From a virus: a DNA stretch of 43,574 nt. Shown piece by piece: positions 14,973 through 31,797 of the stretch; position 1 is the stretch's first letter; every line of letters begins with the position of its first letter. The notes beneath the pieces are model-generated. The model did no database searches and had not been told where the DNA came from. It saw only the letters and a program-made list of their open reading frames with translations. The position numbers and the translations under genes are program-made. The stretch is taken from IMG/VR virus record IMGVR_UViG_3300006033_001296, positions 1 through 43,574 of that record, one strand, 5' to 3'.

Positions 14973-15299
14973 CGTGAATTGGCGTCAATAGGCGCGTAAG
15001 CGCTGCAATCAAGGGCAATCAGCGGTTTTTGACCATGCAACATCTACCCCGGATTTTGGATAGTATGACAGCTATGATCTGGCGAGCGGTGTGGGTGTGA
15101 AGCTACATCGCTCTCAGTCAGGAAATTCGACGGGTCCTTCCTGTCAAAAATCCCATGCGGGAGGCGACAGCGCGGCATTTCGATAGCGTCAGACTGCGCA
15201 ACGAGGTTACCGGGGTTACCAGTTACCACCCCGGTTACCACTTGAACCGAGTTACCACCCAATCTACGACCCGCCCACTGTGGCGGGTTTTTGCATTCC
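14973..15299. promoter_or_regulatory. 327-bp non-coding region with GTTACC repeats and hairpin
   Basis: No gene fits. Five GTTACC motifs occur at 15206, 15215, 15222, 15234 and 15251. Within them ACCGGGGT (15209-15216) pairs with ACCCCGGT (15228-15235) around an 11-base loop. TTGACG (14969-14974) and CGTCAA (14983-14988) form another small dyad at the end of the DUF6362-like gene. A TTGACC at 15029 resembles a -35 box, but no good -10 was found. Possible roles are origin, cos-proximal region or methyltransferase operator. Confidence 0.45.
15269..15292 (+). terminator. Terminator directly upstream of the methyltransferase start
   Basis: Stem ACCCGCC (15269-15275) and GGCGGGT (15282-15288) with a six-base loop, then TTTTT. 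It ends eight bases before the ATG at 15300. A near-identical element (ACCCGCCCA...GGCGGGTTTT, then GCATT) occurs at 41534-41556. Confidence 0.8.
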
Positions 15300-16694
15300 A
15301 TGACCCAAACCTTGAACGTCGAATACCGGAAGGTCGAGACGCTGATCCCGTTCGCCCGCAATCCGCGCACGCATTCCGAGGCGCAGATCGCCAAGCTCGC
15401 GGCCAGCATCGTCGAGTTTGGCTGGACCAACCCGGTCCTGGTCGATGGTAGCCACGGCATCATTGCCGGCCACGGTCGCCTGGCCGCTGCGCGCAAGCTC
15501 GGCCTGTCCGAGGTGCCGGTCATTGAACTCGGCCACCTCTCGCCGTCACAGAAGCGCGCCTATGTAATCGCTGACAACCGCCTGGCACTCGATGCGGGAT
15601 GGGATGAAGAGATGCTCGCCGCCGAACTGGCGGAACTTACGGAGTCAGGTTATGACCTGACGCTGACCGGATTCACCAACGAGGAAATTGAAGACTTACT
15701 GGTGGATGGTGGGGAAGGAACGGCCGAGGAGTCCTCGGCTGATTCCGACGATGCTGCCGACGAGGTACCTGATACGCCGGTCAATCCGGTATCGCGTCCT
15801 GGTGACGTCTGGCAACTGGGTGCGCACCGCGTGATCTGCGGGGATGCTGCCGACGCCACCGTGGTTGCAGCCTTGATGGCCGACGACAAGGCTGCGCTGT
15901 GCTTCACCTCGCCGCCCTACGGCAACCAGCGGGACTACACGAACACCATCATTGATTGGGATGCCCTGATGCGCGGCGTTTTCTCCAACCTGCCGATGAC
16001 TCCGAACGGCCAGGTGCTGGTGAATCTTGGGCTGATCCATCGCGACAACGAGGTCATACCCTACTGGGATGGCTGGCTCGACTGGATGCGCACGCAGGGC
16101 TGGCGGCGTTTTGCCTGGTACGTCTGGGACCAGGGACCAGGATTGCCTGGCGACTGGAATGGTCGGCTGGCACCGTCGTTCGAGTTTGTCTTCCATTTCA
16201 ACCGCCAGGCACGCCAGGCCAACAAGATCATGCCCTGCAAATTTGCGGGTCAAGAAACGCATCTACGCAAGGACGGCAGTTCCACGGCCATGCGCAAAAA
16301 AGATGGGACGATTGGTGGCTGGACAGCGGCCGGCACGCCCACGCAGGACACCAAGATTCCGGATTCCGTGATCCGCATCATGCGGCACAAGGGAAAGATT
16401 GGACAGGACATCGATCACCCGGCGGTATTCCCGGTGGCACTGCCAGAGCACATTCTGGAAACCTACACCGACGATGGCAACATCGTGTTCGAACCATTCT
16501 GCGGATCCGGCACCACGCTGCTTGCTGCGCAACGCACTGGCCGCGTAGTGCGGGCCACCGAGATTGCGCCCGAGTATGTTGATGTGACCATCAAACGTTT
16601 CCAGCAGAATTTCCCGCAGGTGCCGGTCACGCTGGTGACCACTGGGCAGACCTATGGTGCGGTTGCCACAGAACGATTGGGAGCACCCACATGA
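15300..16694 (+). CDS. ParB-domain DNA methyltransferase (SPPY type)
   Basis: A 464-residue fusion. Residues about 1-110 form a ParB N-terminal-like domain: VETLIPFARNPRTHSEAQIA, GHGRLAAARKLG and RAYVIADNRLAL. Residues about 170-460 are an N6-adenine/N4-cytosine methyltransferase, with motif IV SPPYGNQRDYTN (S204-Y207) before motif I FEPFCGSGTT (about 397-406), the beta-class order. The SPPY form is common in N4-cytosine enzymes, so the target base is not settled. It should modify phage DNA, either to avoid host restriction or to control packaging or expression. The ATG at 15300 has a weak ribosome site. A TTG at 15291 is the alternative. It overlaps the next methyltransferase by four bases. 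Confidence 0.9.
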   Translation: MTQTLNVEYRKVETLIPFARNPRTHSEAQIAKLAASIVEFGWTNPVLVDGSHGIIAGHGRLAAARKLGLSEVPVIELGHLSPSQKRAYVIADNRLALDAGWDEEMLAAELAELTESGYDLTLTGFTNEEIEDLLVDGGEGTAEESSADSDDAADEVPDTPVNPVSRPGDVWQLGAHRVICGDAADATVVAALMADDKAALCFTSPPYGNQRDYTNTIIDWDALMRGVFSNLPMTPNGQVLVNLGLIHRDNEVIPYWDGWLDWMRTQGWRRFAWYVWDQGPGLPGDWNGRLAPSFEFVFHFNRQARQANKIMPCKFAGQETHLRKDGSSTAMRKKDGTIGGWTAAGTPTQDTKIPDSVIRIMRHKGKIGQDIDHPAVFPVALPEHILETYTDDGNIVFEPFCGSGTTLLAAQRTGRVVRATEIAPEYVDVTIKRFQQNFPQVPVTLVTTGQTYGAVATERLGAPT

Positions 16695-18037
16695 CGATTT
16701 CGTGGCTGGCCGACAAGATCGAGCAGTGGCCGACTGCCAAGCTGGTGCCCTATGCCCGCAATGCCCGGACGCATTCGGATGCGCAAGTGGCGCAGATCGC
16801 CGCGTCGATTGCCGAGTTCGGTTTCACCAATCCGATCCTGGCCGGTGGTGATGGCGTCATCGTGGCCGGGCATGGCCGTCTGGCTGCAGCCCAGAAACTC
16901 GGCATCGCTGTCGTTCCAGTTGTGATCCTTGATCACCTGACACCGACGCAGCGTCGCGCCCTGGTAATCGCGGATAATCGGATTGCCGAAAACGCCGGCT
17001 GGGACGATGCCATGCTCCAGGTCGAACTGGCCGCACTGCAGGATGACAACTTCGATCTGTCCCTGACCGGCTTCGATGCCGATGCCCTGGCCGACCTGCT
17101 CGCCGGTGAGGAAACAACCACCGAAGGCGATACCGACGAAGATTCCATTCCGGAAGACACTGGCCCCGTCGTATCAAGGGCCGGCGATGTCTGGCTCTGC
17201 GGGGAGCACCGTGTGCTCTGCGGGGACTCGACTGATGCCGATGCCTACGCAGCTTTACTGGGCGACGAGATCGCCGACATGGTATTTACGGATCCACCGT
17301 ACAACGTCAATTACGCCAACTCGGCCAAGGACAAAATGCGCGGCAAGGACCGCGCGATCCTCAACGACAACCTCGGTGACGGGTTCTACGATTTCTTGCT
17401 GGCCGCACTGACGCCCACCGTGGCGCATTGCCAGGGTGGTATCTACGTGGCCATGTCGTCGAGCGAACTGGACCGCTTGCAGGCGGCGTTCCGTGCGGCG
17501 GGTGGCCACTGGTCCACCTTCGTTATATGGGCCAAGAATACTTTCACCCTGGGGCGTGCCGACTACCAGCGTCAGTACGAACCGATTCTCTATGGCTGGC
17601 CCGAGGGCGCCGATCGTCACTGGTGCGGTGACCGTGACCAGGGCGATGTCTGGCAGATCAAGAAACCGCAGAAGAACGATCTGCACCCGACCATGAAGCC
17701 GGTGGAACTGGTGGAACGGGCGATCCGTAATTCCAGTCGCCCCGGGGATGTGGTCATGGATCCCTTCGGCGGGTCAGGCACCACGATGATTGCCGCGCAC
17801 AAGTCGGGCCGCAAGGCGCGGCTGATCGAACTGGACCCGAAGTACGTCGATGTGATCGTTCGCCGCTGGCAGGACTATGCCGGGGCGAAGGCCATCAGGC
17901 TGTCCGATGGCGTGGCATTCGACGCGCTGTCAGTCGGTGGGGAACTCCGGCAGGAGGTCGCCGCTGGTGATGTCGGCGCAGTAAGTGACGTTGCCGAATT
18001 CGGCGGGGTCATCGGCGAGGATGACCCCGCCGACTGA
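16691..18037 (+). CDS. ParB-domain DNA methyltransferase (DPPY type), paralogue of upstream gene
   Basis: A 448-residue fusion built like its neighbour: a ParB-like N-terminal domain (KLVPYARNARTHSDAQVAQI, GHGRLAAAQKLG), then a methyltransferase with motif IV DPPY at D201-Y204 and motif I DPFGGSGTT at about 357-365. DPPY favours an adenine-N6 enzyme. The two genes are tandem paralogues with an ATGA junction. The last 35 residues (414-448, from about nucleotide 17930) lie entirely over the reverse-strand gene and read as low-complexity Gly/Val/Glu sequence. The original C-terminus was probably near VRRWQDYAGAKAIRL, and the extra tail likely arose by read-through. Confidence 0.9.
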   Translation: MTISWLADKIEQWPTAKLVPYARNARTHSDAQVAQIAASIAEFGFTNPILAGGDGVIVAGHGRLAAAQKLGIAVVPVVILDHLTPTQRRALVIADNRIAENAGWDDAMLQVELAALQDDNFDLSLTGFDADALADLLAGEETTTEGDTDEDSIPEDTGPVVSRAGDVWLCGEHRVLCGDSTDADAYAALLGDEIADMVFTDPPYNVNYANSAKDKMRGKDRAILNDNLGDGFYDFLLAALTPTVAHCQGGIYVAMSSSELDRLQAAFRAAGGHWSTFVIWAKNTFTLGRADYQRQYEPILYGWPEGADRHWCGDRDQGDVWQIKKPQKNDLHPTMKPVELVERAIRNSSRPGDVVMDPFGGSGTTMIAAHKSGRKARLIELDPKYVDVIVRRWQDYAGAKAIRLSDGVAFDALSVGGELRQEVAAGDVGAVSDVAEFGGVIGEDDPAD

Positions 18038-28241: not shown

Positions 28242-28522
28242 TGACCGTCCTGACTGATCTGTATGCGGCAGCCGGGCGAGCTGGCTTGCTCACACCCGCC
28301 GTCATTGGGGGCGCGGAAGTCCTGGTGGATTTTCGTGCCCCCGATGTCGAGGTGCTCGATGGCCTGGGCTTGTCCTCTGACTATGCAATCCGCTACCCGG
28401 TCGAAGCGACGATTCTGGATAGCGGTCACGAACTCGTGATCGGTGGCGTGACCTACCGCGTCCGCGAAGTCAGGGCCATTGGGGATGGTTCTGAATGCCG
28501 GGCCACACTCACCCGACTTTAG
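28241..28522 (+). CDS. Head completion / head-tail joining protein (FII-like)
   Basis: A 93-residue protein starting at the capsid stop (TGATG overlap). Its beta-rich sequence (VLVDFRAPDVEVLDGLGLSS, then VEATILDSGHELVIGGVTYRV) and position fit the small head-tail joining proteins like lambda FII. Its stop (28520-28522) overlaps the reverse-strand moron stop. The role is by position and pattern. Confidence 0.72.
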   Translation: MTVLTDLYAAAGRAGLLTPAVIGGAEVLVDFRAPDVEVLDGLGLSSDYAIRYPVEATILDSGHELVIGGVTYRVREVRAIGDGSECRATLTRL

Positions 28523-29154
28523 GGGCCGATCTTGATCCAGCGGTTCCAGAGCATACGCGCGATGGTGGCATTCACTGCTTGGCGATCGAAACGATCGGGA
28601 TCGAAATCAAGGCCAGCCCATTCCCGGAAGGCTTTGGTTTCATCCCCGTAGGGATCATCTTCCAGTCGGTCGAGGAAGTCCTGATAGCCGCCCGAGCCTC
28701 CCGCATCGTCGGGCGGGCAGGCACGCTCGCCAGCCTCGACCCAGGCAAAACCGCCATCGCTCGGCGTTGGTTTGACGTCCTTGATCGCTTCGACGGTGAT
28801 GCGGTGCTGCCAGCCATCACCGAAATCGTAGAGGTAGGTGCAGGAATCTCCTTCGGCGAGCAACTGGTTAAGGCGGTATTTCTTCTCGTCGAGCACCTCC
28901 CAGCCAGGATCGGTGAATTCTGGATCGGGCACACCGTAGTGCTTGTCGCGGATCTCGAACTTGTGCAGATGCGAGTCCGACCAACCCATCGCGGCCTGAA
29001 GGATGTGATGCAGGGCATCGAGCCTAGTCCGGCCGTCCAGGTGAATGCGACGCCAGATCGTCGGACGAATGCCGAGAAGTTCAACACGAATCGTGTAGTG
29101 GTCGGGCGTCGACTGACTGCTGCGATGTTTTTTGGTTTTGGTGGCGGTGGCCAT
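28519..29154 (-). CDS. Plasmid pRiA4b ORF-3-like protein (inverted moron)
   Basis: A 211-residue protein of the pRiA4b ORF-3 family, seen in IRPTIWRRIHLDGRTRLDAL, LHHILQAAMGWSDSHLHKFE, and CTYLYDFGDGWQHRITVEAI (about 108-127). The family is spread among plasmids, transposons and phages, and its role is unclear. The ATG at 29154 was chosen over 29223 because the latter starts in the next gene. The stops of this gene and the head-completion gene overlap (TTAG). It is the only reverse gene within the head-tail module, so it is probably a separately expressed cargo gene. Confidence 0.9.
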   Translation of the reverse strand: MATATKTKKHRSSQSTPDHYTIRVELLGIRPTIWRRIHLDGRTRLDALHHILQAAMGWSDSHLHKFEIRDKHYGVPDPEFTDPGWEVLDEKKYRLNQLLAEGDSCTYLYDFGDGWQHRITVEAIKDVKPTPSDGGFAWVEAGERACPPDDAGGSGGYQDFLDRLEDDPYGDETKAFREWAGLDFDPDRFDRQAVNATIARMLWNRWIKIGP

Positions 29155-29213
29155 GCTGGTTTGTTTCCCCGTGATCCTTGCCGTCCATTTTACGTACCCA
29201 TTCGGAGAATCAA

Positions 29214-29657
29214 ATGCCCACATCCATTCGGGAGCGGCTATTGCAGGAGATCATCAACCGACTCAGTCCCCTGGCGCAGGCAGAAGGCGCACAGATCAAG
29301 CGATCGCCGACTACTGCCATCAGCCGCGACGCGAGCCCGGTCTTGCTGCTCTTTCCAGAAGCTGAGTCCATTGCCCAGCGGGCCAATGATCGTATCGAGC
29401 GCCATCTGATCGTCCGCCTGGTCGCCATGGCCCGTGAAACCAGCGGCGAAGCCGCCGAGGTCATTGCCGATCGTCTGCAGGTTGCCGCTCACGCAGCCCT
29501 GTTTGCCGACGTCAACTTTGGCGGCCTGTGCATCGGACTTCAGCAACTTGATTGCGAGTGGGACATCGAGGATGCCGATGCCACGGCGGCTGCCATTCCG
29601 ACACGTTATCAGGTCACGTACCGCACCCTGGTACATGACCTCACTGCGCAGGGCTAA
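29214..29657 (+). CDS. Probable tail terminator/completion protein
   Basis: A 147-residue protein beginning MPTSIRERLLQEIINRLSPL. Its helix-then-beta arrangement (SPVLLLFPEAESIAQRANDR, RHLIVRLVAM) and place after the head-completion gene fit the lambda U or Z-like tail terminator group. CGGAGAATCAA precedes the ATG. The frame from 29178 was not used, since it has no ribosome site. The role is by position. Confidence 0.7.
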   Translation: MPTSIRERLLQEIINRLSPLAQAEGAQIKRSPTTAISRDASPVLLLFPEAESIAQRANDRIERHLIVRLVAMARETSGEAAEVIADRLQVAAHAALFADVNFGGLCIGLQQLDCEWDIEDADATAAAIPTRYQVTYRTLVHDLTAQG

Positions 29658-29835: not shown

Positions 29836-30570
29836 ATGGCCTATTTTTCCGGACAAGGTCGCGTCTTCATCGGCGCGCGTGACACCAATGGCAACCCGCT
29901 GGGGCTCACCTTCGTCGGCAACGTGCCTGATCTGAAGGTTTCGCTGTCCGTCGAGACCCTGGAGCATCAGGAATCGCAATCCGGCCAGCGCCTGACCGAT
30001 TTGCAACTCATCAAGACCAAGAAAGGAGAGTTCGCCTGCACCCTGGAGGAACTGATCCAGACGAATCTGGAGCTCTCCCTCTACGGATCCACCACGGCGG
30101 TCACCACCGGCACCGTAACCGACGAGCCTGTCATCGCGACGGCGGAACTCGGCAAACTCTATTTGCTCGGCAAGCAGAACGTCTCTGCCGTAGTCATCAA
30201 GGCAGGTGCTACCACCGTCGCCAATACGAAATACACGGTCAATTCCAAGCATGGCTCCATTCAGTTCACCGACATCACCGGTGTGACCGGTGCGATTGCT
30301 GCCAGCTACAGCTACGGTGCTGCCAACGTCACGGCCATGTTCACGCAGCCCTTGCCAGAACGCTGGGTTCGCTTCGAGGGTCTGAACACGGCCGACGCCA
30401 ACAAGGAAGTCGTAATCGACCTCTATCGGGTGGCCATCAATCCGGCGAAAGATTTGTCTGTGATCGGCACCGAACTCATGAAGTTCGAGTTATCCGGGCA
30501 GGTGCTGGCCGATCTCACCAAGCCGGCTGCTGGTGCGCTTGGCCAATTCGGTCGGATCGTGTTGCTGTGA
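29836..30570 (+). CDS. Major tail tube protein
   Basis: A 244-residue protein with the tail-tube signature: FSGQGRVFIGARDTNGNPLG, then KVSLSVETLEHQESQSGQRL, which is typical of the phage tail tube beta-barrel, followed by an Ig-like insertion (about 90-165: YTVNSKHGSIQFTDITG) and the C-terminal barrel with ELMKFELSGQVLADLTKP. CAGGAGTAAGCA precedes the ATG. It should polymerise into the tail around the tape measure. It overlaps the chaperone start (TGATG). Confidence 0.88.
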   Translation: MAYFSGQGRVFIGARDTNGNPLGLTFVGNVPDLKVSLSVETLEHQESQSGQRLTDLQLIKTKKGEFACTLEELIQTNLELSLYGSTTAVTTGTVTDEPVIATAELGKLYLLGKQNVSAVVIKAGATTVANTKYTVNSKHGSIQFTDITGVTGAIAASYSYGAANVTAMFTQPLPERWVRFEGLNTADANKEVVIDLYRVAINPAKDLSVIGTELMKFELSGQVLADLTKPAAGALGQFGRIVLL

Positions 30571-30971
30571 TGGGCAAGGAGATGTTCGCGGCACTGCCGC
30601 CGGTGCCGGCGTCCGTCGAGATCGCTGGCGAGCACATCGAACTCACGCCGCTCAAGGTGGGCGAAGTGCCAGCATTCGCTCGGGCGGTACAACCCATCGC
30701 AGCGAATCTTTCAGCATCGCCTGATTGGCTGGCAATTCTGGCCGAGCACGGCGAGGCGGTGATCGCAGCTCTCGCCATTGCGACGCGCCGTCCGGTCGAC
30801 TGGGTGGCTGGGCTCGATCTCGATGAGGCTGTGCGCCTGGCCGAAGTGGTGTTCGGGGTGAATGCCGATTTTTTTATCCGGCGCCTGTTGCCGAGCGTGA
30901 CGCAGGCAGCGGCGCGAATCGGCCTGGCACTGGAAAACCCGACGCCTGGAGCCATGCCCTCCAACGCATGA
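30570..30971 (+). CDS. Tail assembly chaperone (G-like)
   Basis: A 133-residue protein with the IELTPLKVGEVPAFARAVQP start and a helical EAVRLAEVVFGVNADFFIRR segment. Length and position between the tube and tape measure fit the lambda G-type chaperone. The codons for DFF contain seven Ts in a row. The -1 frame from there stays open into the next gene. ATG 30570 lies in the previous stop, and GTG at 30567 is an alternative. Confidence 0.78.
   Translation: MGKEMFAALPPVPASVEIAGEHIELTPLKVGEVPAFARAVQPIAANLSASPDWLAILAEHGEAVIAALAIATRRPVDWVAGLDLDEAVRLAEVVFGVNADFFIRRLLPSVTQAAARIGLALENPTPGAMPSNA
30869..30875 (+). other. Candidate -1 frameshift site (T TTT TTT)
   Basis: A seven-base T run, in frame as (GA)T TTT TTT. 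Slipping back one base would join residues 1-102 of the chaperone to a 92-residue extension running to 31153, with no stop before the ATG of the next gene at 30968. The product would be 194 residues, like lambda G-T. No downstream structure was checked. Confidence 0.45.
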
Positions 30972-31153
30972 TCGGCGCAGGGCATGCCTACGCAGACATT
31001 CTCAACTACACGCTGGCGCAAACCGATGCCTTTCTGGCCGCCATCGACCAGCAGGAGTGCCGGCAACTGGCGAATCTCCTGTCGGTAACGGCGACCGGCA
31101 GTCAGGGCAGCAGTGACGCATTGCGCCGGATGATGAAGGTGCTGTCGTGCTGA
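30968..31153 (+). CDS. Small tail chaperone partner (T-like)
   Basis: A 61-residue helical protein (MIGAGHAYADILNYTLAQTD) overlapping the G-like gene by four bases (ATGA). It lies in the -1 frame of that gene and may be made either separately or as a fusion through the T-run frameshift. The position before the tape measure gene fits a lambda T role. It may be independently translated from coupling. Confidence 0.72.
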   Translation: MIGAGHAYADILNYTLAQTDAFLAAIDQQECRQLANLLSVTATGSQGSSDALRRMMKVLSC

Positions 31154-31797
31154 AACTCTCCCTGACCGCCTCCGGCCTGCTCGACAAGTCCCGCCTCGAT
31201 GCCTGGAGCCGGCAGAAGCAGGCTGCCATCCACAAGGCGGTCGCGACCGGAATGCAATCAGGCGGCAAGACCGTTGCTGATGCCGTGCGCAGCAGGGTAA
31301 ATGCCGATTTTACGGTCAGAAAACCGGCCTTCGTGAGATCGCTGCGGGCCAAGGTCTATGACCGCAACCCCGAAAAATTGCCGGCGCTGCTAATCGGCTC
31401 GAAGATTCCCTGGCTCGGCATCCATGTGCGGGGTGGAACCATCTCCGGCCGGATGCTAATTCCATTGACCGAGGAAGGCCGCCGCATCGGTCGTCGAGCG
31501 TTCAAACGGGTCATCGATACGCTGATTCATTCGGGCAACGCGTATTTCATCCGCAAAAACGGCCAGGCCATCCTGATGGCCGAGAACATCAAGGAAAACG
31601 CCTCGGTACTGACCCGGTTCAAGCGCGCGGAACGGAGCCGCACCGGCGCGAAGTCGATCAAGCGCGGCACAGAGATTCCCATTGCCGTGCTGGTACCGGC
31701 GGTGTCCATGAAACGCCGCTTCGATCTGGAAGGAACGGTACGCGGCCAGATGCCCGTCCTGGCCAGAGCAATCGAGAAGCAGTTGACCAAAATTTGA
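31147..31797 (+). CDS. Basic phage tail protein (DUF6441-like)
   Basis: A 216-residue basic protein beginning (GTG) MLKLSLTASGLLDKSRLDAW, with DAVRSRVNADFTVRKPAFVR and RGTEIPIAVLVPAVSMKRRF. I recall similar proteins named DUF6441, but this was not checked. It lies between the chaperone pair and the tape measure, where a minor tail protein such as Z is possible. It overlaps the previous gene by seven bases. Confidence 0.7.
   Translation: MLKLSLTASGLLDKSRLDAWSRQKQAAIHKAVATGMQSGGKTVADAVRSRVNADFTVRKPAFVRSLRAKVYDRNPEKLPALLIGSKIPWLGIHVRGGTISGRMLIPLTEEGRRIGRRAFKRVIDTLIHSGNAYFIRKNGQAILMAENIKENASVLTRFKRAERSRTGAKSIKRGTEIPIAVLVPAVSMKRRFDLEGTVRGQMPVLARAIEKQLTKI

Follow-up and report, generated by a model that had tools for sequence, protein, structure and literature searches.

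Evidence for a programmed −1 ribosomal frameshift in a viral tail assembly chaperone gene, with a conserved Shine–Dalgarno-like element upstream of the slip site

Frameshifting into the −1 frame in tail assembly genes is widely conserved among long-tailed phages (PMC5009743), and within the D3112 group a T TTT TTC heptamer together with a required −1 shift has been reported for PaMx73 (PMC4378225). A frameshift product or a slip site is also annotated in the records of the Pseudomonas phages MP42 and MP38 and the Stenotrophomonas phages phiSHP3 and Summit. In another phage cluster, 6–7% frameshifting was measured for two tail chaperone genes (PMC3711429), and in the Mu-like phage KS10 such a site was sought and not found (PMC2628397). 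The open reading frames (ORFs) concerned share low similarity between phages (PMC5009743), and homology to G of phage lambda therefore does not define membership of this group of systems. With respect to upstream elements, −1 sites with a Shine–Dalgarno (SD) spacing of 9–14 nt have been described, with dnaX and many IS elements named as users (PMC5009743, section 36), and PRFect (PMC10885494) uses a ribosome binding site upstream of the slip site as a general feature.

The DNA analysed here, called the window, is a viral record of 43,574 bases; the features around its tail assembly chaperone gene are collected in Table 1. The chaperone gene is located between the genes for the major tail protein and the tape measure protein, with one gene for a DUF6441 protein intervening, and its ATG at 30570 overlaps the stop codon of the major tail protein gene (29836–30570). 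Within the same head–tail module, a gene of the PRiA4_ORF3 family (PF07929, E 5.9e-56; 28519–29223, minus strand) lies antisense directly before the tail terminator gene and has the look of a moron (cargo gene). Further upstream, the adjacent ORFs 15291–16694 and 16691–18037 are of similar build, each starting with a ParB-like part; a DNA methylase domain was found when the former was tested, and the latter was assessed by eye only.

Table 1 Features of the tail assembly chaperone locus (positions in the window)
Feature	Position	Strand	Basis or remark
Major tail protein with Ig-like domain (lambda V position)	29836–30570	+	phrog_807, E 4.1e-78
G-like tail assembly chaperone, zero-frame product, 133 aa	30570–30971	+	phrog_1442; PF20336 (DUF6631); AlphaFold model
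Shine–Dalgarno-like GGGGTGA	30855–30861	+	anti-SD pairing; 10 nt from the end of its G-rich core to the slip site
Slippery heptamer T TTT TTT	30869–30875	+	direct reading; T TTT TTY in relatives
T-like part in the −1 frame, 92 residues plus stop	30875–31153	+	phrog_13355; phrog_14432; tblastn
Dual-coding overlap, end of G and start of T	30876–30970	+	synonymous divergence; frame openness
Candidate stimulatory hairpin	30881–30915	+	separated from the slip site by 5 nt; unproven
TGG codon for the invariant Trp of the T domain	30947–30949	+	ATG 30968 follows 7 codons later
ATG overlapping the G stop (ATGA)	30968–30970	+	sole start codon for T in the window
DUF6441 protein, gene between GT and tape measure gene	31147–31797	+	PF20039, E 1.8e-86
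Tape measure protein, 865 aa	31814–34411	+	several tail length tape measure PHROGs

The zero-frame product belongs to the tail chaperone family. It matches phrog_1442 (annotated as tail assembly chaperone, E 1.3e-32) and scores above the cut-off for PF20336 (DUF6631), while the named viral structural matches of its AlphaFold model (pLDDT 82) are mostly phage tail assembly chaperones, one of them a pre-tape measure frameshift protein G. The T-like part is related to phrog_13355 (E 8.7e-12) and phrog_14432 (profile positions 119–183 of 191, E 3e-5), and tblastn gave a match to the T of annotated frameshift chaperones in Stenotrophomonas phages; its predicted model (pLDDT 73.7) had no convincing viral structural match. 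A profile comparison with Pseudomonas phage U4 connected both parts (G, E 3.2e-13; T, E 8.5e-8). A fold search of the PDB had no hit at E ≤ 0.001, the PDB sequence search gave no meaningful match and NCBIfam nothing above cut-off, and no direct sequence similarity was seen to lambda G (BLASTP E 68) or to HK97 gp13 (E 1.0).

A preliminary description of this locus proposed a −1 frameshift at an in-frame T TTT TTT (30869–30875), followed by a −1 frame that stays open to a stop at 31153. Direct reading confirms both the coordinates and the frame. The ATG at 30570 opens an ORF of 133 aa that ends at TGA 30969–30971 and in which codons 100–102 are GAT (30867–30869) and TTT TTT (30870–30875); the −1 frame runs without interruption through 92 codons from TAT at 30875 to TGA 31151–31153, so that the fusion would indeed have the proposed length of 194 residues (102 + 92). 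The accompanying argument that a seven-T run is rare in this DNA had to be dropped: TTTTTTT occurs three times on the two window strands together against 1.74 expected, and at least three copies are present in 22 of 100 dinucleotide shuffles of the window. An open −1 frame is by itself also unremarkable, since synonymous recoding of the overlap keeps it open 65.5% of the time. As far as the sequence can tell, the window alone does not lift the slip site above chance; it is the conservation in relatives that does so. The window contains a second X XXY YYZ heptamer in this region, A AAC CCG at 30935–30941. Of 25 intact sequences (24 loci and the window, excluding L026, which is cut off), none but the window, L002 and L008 has it, and it is therefore not the slip site.

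Relatives were collected as 25 viral contigs, 80 genome contigs (the best 80 of 89), 57 further viral contigs (the best 80 of 190, minus 23 already in the set) and two annotated phage records, giving 165 sequences with the window included; clustering at 95% identity reduced these to 91 representatives. The DUF6441 gene occupies the same place in 82 of the 87 representatives with room to tell, unlike in MP42 and MP38. The preliminary description held that its reading would fall if relatives had no conserved slip site and there were no fusion product. An in-frame T TTT TTY near the 3′ end of G was found in 164 of the 165 sequences (T TTT TTT in 79, T TTT TTC in 85), the sole sequence lacking the heptamer, L026, being truncated upstream of it. 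All 91 representatives share the six leading Ts and differ in the seventh base (T in 56, C in 35), a variation that tandem slippage allows. All 88 representatives with Asp at the slip site use GAT for it (background 0.30), and all 91 use TTT for the first Phe (background 0.14). When the set was thinned to 46, 21, 14 and 9 divergent sequences, both codons stayed at 100% (9/9 in the smallest set). Codon choice is, by this comparison, fixed exactly where the slip needs it.

Downstream of the slip site, all 91 representatives keep the −1 frame open where 60.6 would be expected to, and 19 of 91 have an open +1 frame (25.9 expected). Third-position synonymous divergence, determined for 68 disjoint pairs, was 115/1008 in the sampled part of the overlap (+7 to +55) versus 476/2751 upstream. 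Substitutions that create a −1-frame stop at +31 to +55 numbered 0 against 27.0 expected, counted over 879 non-independent pairs; for the 68 disjoint pairs, the count at +7 to +55 was 0 against 1.2 expected, which makes it a weak test. The T domain carries a Trp (column W25) that is invariant in 39 aligned T parts and that comes before the G stop in all 90 representatives that could be tested, L077 being omitted because an extra T fuses its frames. No ATG, GTG or TTG in the T frame precedes this Trp in 39 of the 90, and a start with an SD sequence does so in only one. No stop interrupts the −1 frame before the end of T, and the T domain is without a separate usable start. The comparison indicates that the −1 frame is used, starting at the slip site.

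About 10 nt upstream of the slip site there is an SD-like sequence whose anti-SD pairing exceeds what codon usage would lead one to expect. Most relatives have GAGGTGA at this place, and of 150 start positions profiled (−120 to +29) it has the strongest mean anti-SD pairing. The mean energy is −8.53 kcal/mol versus −5.94 ± 0.32 kcal/mol for synonymous recodings, none of 300 of which was as low. The excess holds after thinning to 46, 21 and 14 sequences and is not significant at 9 (reached by 207 of 1000 nulls); six neighbouring control blocks have no comparable excess. The codon before Val ends in G, both for Glu (GAG in 65 of 67) and for Gly (GGG in 18 of 21). L079 and L126 have no such element, in L058 and the FGANADFF group it is weak, and it is likewise missing at the sites of Summit and lambda. 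By analogy with dnaX, it is likely a stimulator of slippage. In the literature searched, we found no SD stimulator for tail chaperone frameshifts, which is not to claim that none is in print; the conserved element as such is new to us.

The strength of the SD-like element varies together with the last base of the slip site. Pairing at or below −7 kcal/mol is found in 97% of the 35 representatives with T TTT TTC versus 64% of the 56 with T TTT TTT, figures that are uncorrected for kinship. Fifteen representatives have a weak or absent element (above −6 kcal/mol), namely L038–L041, L058, L079, L114, L115, L117, L118, L120, L122, L124, L125 and L126; all have T TTT TTT and none has T TTT TTC. T TTT TTC is presumably the weaker slip site of the two, and a trade-off between SD strength and the slip-site base is possible, again uncorrected for kinship. 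The wider proposal is that in these chaperones, as a class of their own, a dnaX-like cassette (SD plus T TTT TTY) and not the heptamer alone determines the G:GT ratio, the SD element being tuned against the slip site; in our opinion this proposal is evenly balanced between being right and being wrong.

Downstream of the slip site, the candidate hairpin reaches −22.3 kcal/mol for 40 nt in the window (z −2.63) and is strong in near relatives too. The alignment shows no significant covariation in its stem (64 of 500 shuffles reach the observed value; 77.4% of cells paired, 19 distinct rows), and RNAalifold kept six pairs with no two-sided change. The family-wide energy profile has its minimum at +12 (mean z −1.13), with a nearly equal value at −90 upstream (−0.95). 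A contribution of the hairpin to slippage is possible only.

The conserved layout could in principle have been produced in other ways. Translational coupling is ordinary in phages, and T might be a separate protein that is started at ATG 30968 through the ATGA overlap. The preliminary description had pointed to an ATG of the downstream gene itself, and this codon and the overlap do exist in the window; as a start for T, however, it is not conserved. An ATG at this exact position is present in 3 of 91 representatives, ATG or GTG in 6 and ATG, GTG or TTG in 20, and any ATG between the slip site and 30 nt beyond the G stop in 10 of 91. With a counterpart in only 3 of 91, independent translation cannot be the general route. 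A T protein started at this ATG would moreover be 31 T-frame residues shorter, without the invariant Trp and without the greater part of the first predicted helix, and the fixed GAT TTT TTY codons and the reduced synonymous change ahead of the ATG would be left unexplained. ATG 30968 is thus probably not the normal start of T, and we consider separate translation very improbable. The same low probability is assigned to slippage of RNA polymerase on the T run, in which mRNAs longer by one U or shorter by two would encode the fusion. A seven-T homopolymer is a possible site for this in principle, but 35 of the 91 representatives have only six Ts (T TTT TTC), and transcriptional slippage in bacteria has been described for runs of nine A or T (PMC5009743). 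Furthermore, the conservation follows codon boundaries, and the SD-like element is placed at a spacing that ribosomal −1 sites use.

It may also be asked whether GAT TTT TTY is conserved merely through constraint on the peptide N-A-D-F-F combined with codon bias, T being made in some other way. The peptide is highly conserved in the relatives, and the search patterns partly select it: some contain the slip-site FF or F, which gives a bias toward loci with those residues, not toward particular codons. What is fixed, however, are the codons and not the residues alone, against the bias of the genes themselves (GAC 70%, TTC 86%), and distant phages keep the T before TTT TTY whether the residue is Asp, Asn, Gly, Ser or His. 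The chance that protein constraint is the explanation is therefore very slight, smaller than for the two foregoing mechanisms. Least credible of all, to a practically negligible degree, is a sequencing or assembly indel in a single real ORF. Homopolymers are error-prone, and in L077 (Thermomonas sp. S9, a canu contig) one extra T does fuse G and T into one frame; this is probably a long-read homopolymer error, although it may be a natural G–T fusion. The two-frame layout recurs in the other 163 site-bearing sequences, from isolates, MAGs and metagenomes, and such an indel is, at the level of sequence, already refuted by these relatives.

We thus regard it as very probable that a programmed −1 ribosomal frameshift of the lambda G–GT type yields a longer second chaperone. 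The sequence comparison establishes the site, the frames, their conservation and the absence of a start codon from which all of the T domain could be translated; relatives conserve the slip site, the openness of the −1 frame and the position of the T domain upstream of possible starts, which supports the G–T reading of the preliminary description. According to the proposed mechanism, most ribosomes would read G (30570–30971) to its stop and produce the 133-residue chaperone. In a minority, tRNA-Phe on TTT TTT (30870–30875) would slip one base back and re-pair on 30869–30874, after which translation would resume at TAT 30875 and end at TGA 31151–31153, giving the 194-residue GT. Pairing of GGGGTGA (30855–30861) with the 3′ end of 16S rRNA may raise the slip rate as in E. 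coli dnaX, an effect we infer by analogy and for which support is moderate. If the proteins act as in lambda, G would coat the tape measure protein and a few copies of GT would recruit the major tail protein, so that the slip rate would set the G:GT ratio.

The result corrects the annotation of a two-part gene for which several public relatives still lack the T part. The public records of pAN, PotUPM1, VW-6B and U4 have only G annotated and the T frame blank, and in that of Bhz63 the T end is a separate small ORF; all five (L167, L168, L169, L171 and L173 in our set) have T TTT TTY and an open −1 frame. The natural series of related sites, which differ in the last base and in SD strength, could serve for testing how the G:GT ratio is tuned in tail assembly.

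Among the described systems, E. coli dnaX likewise combines a tandem slippery heptamer with an SD-like element about 10 nt upstream; it is an unrelated gene with A AAA AAG as slip site, and the downstream hairpin is unproven in the window. HK97 gp13/gp14 is likewise a chaperone with an annotated −1 frameshift product, whereas the X XXY YYZ heptamer rule found no site in gp13. Phage lambda G–GT agrees with the window in the order of the genes, in slipping by −1 close to the end of G and in a T that needs no separate start. Its slip site is G GGA AAG instead of T TTT TTT, and it lacks an SD-like element there, the anti-SD minimum being −2.1 kcal/mol as compared to −9.3 kcal/mol in the window. 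Closest are gpG/gpGT of the D3112/MP22 type (Casadabanvirus MP42 and MP38; PaMx73) and of phiSHP3, which have homologous G and T parts, the same −1 direction, a T TTT TTY site and the same position relative to the major tail and tape measure proteins. They differ in having T TTT TTC where the window has T TTT TTT, and in having the tape measure gene directly after GT, where the window has the DUF6441 gene in between. Since MP42, MP38, phiSHP3, Summit and PaMx73 show the same arrangement, the event is of a known type; the frameshift is already known in D3112/MP22-group phages, and the window is another member.
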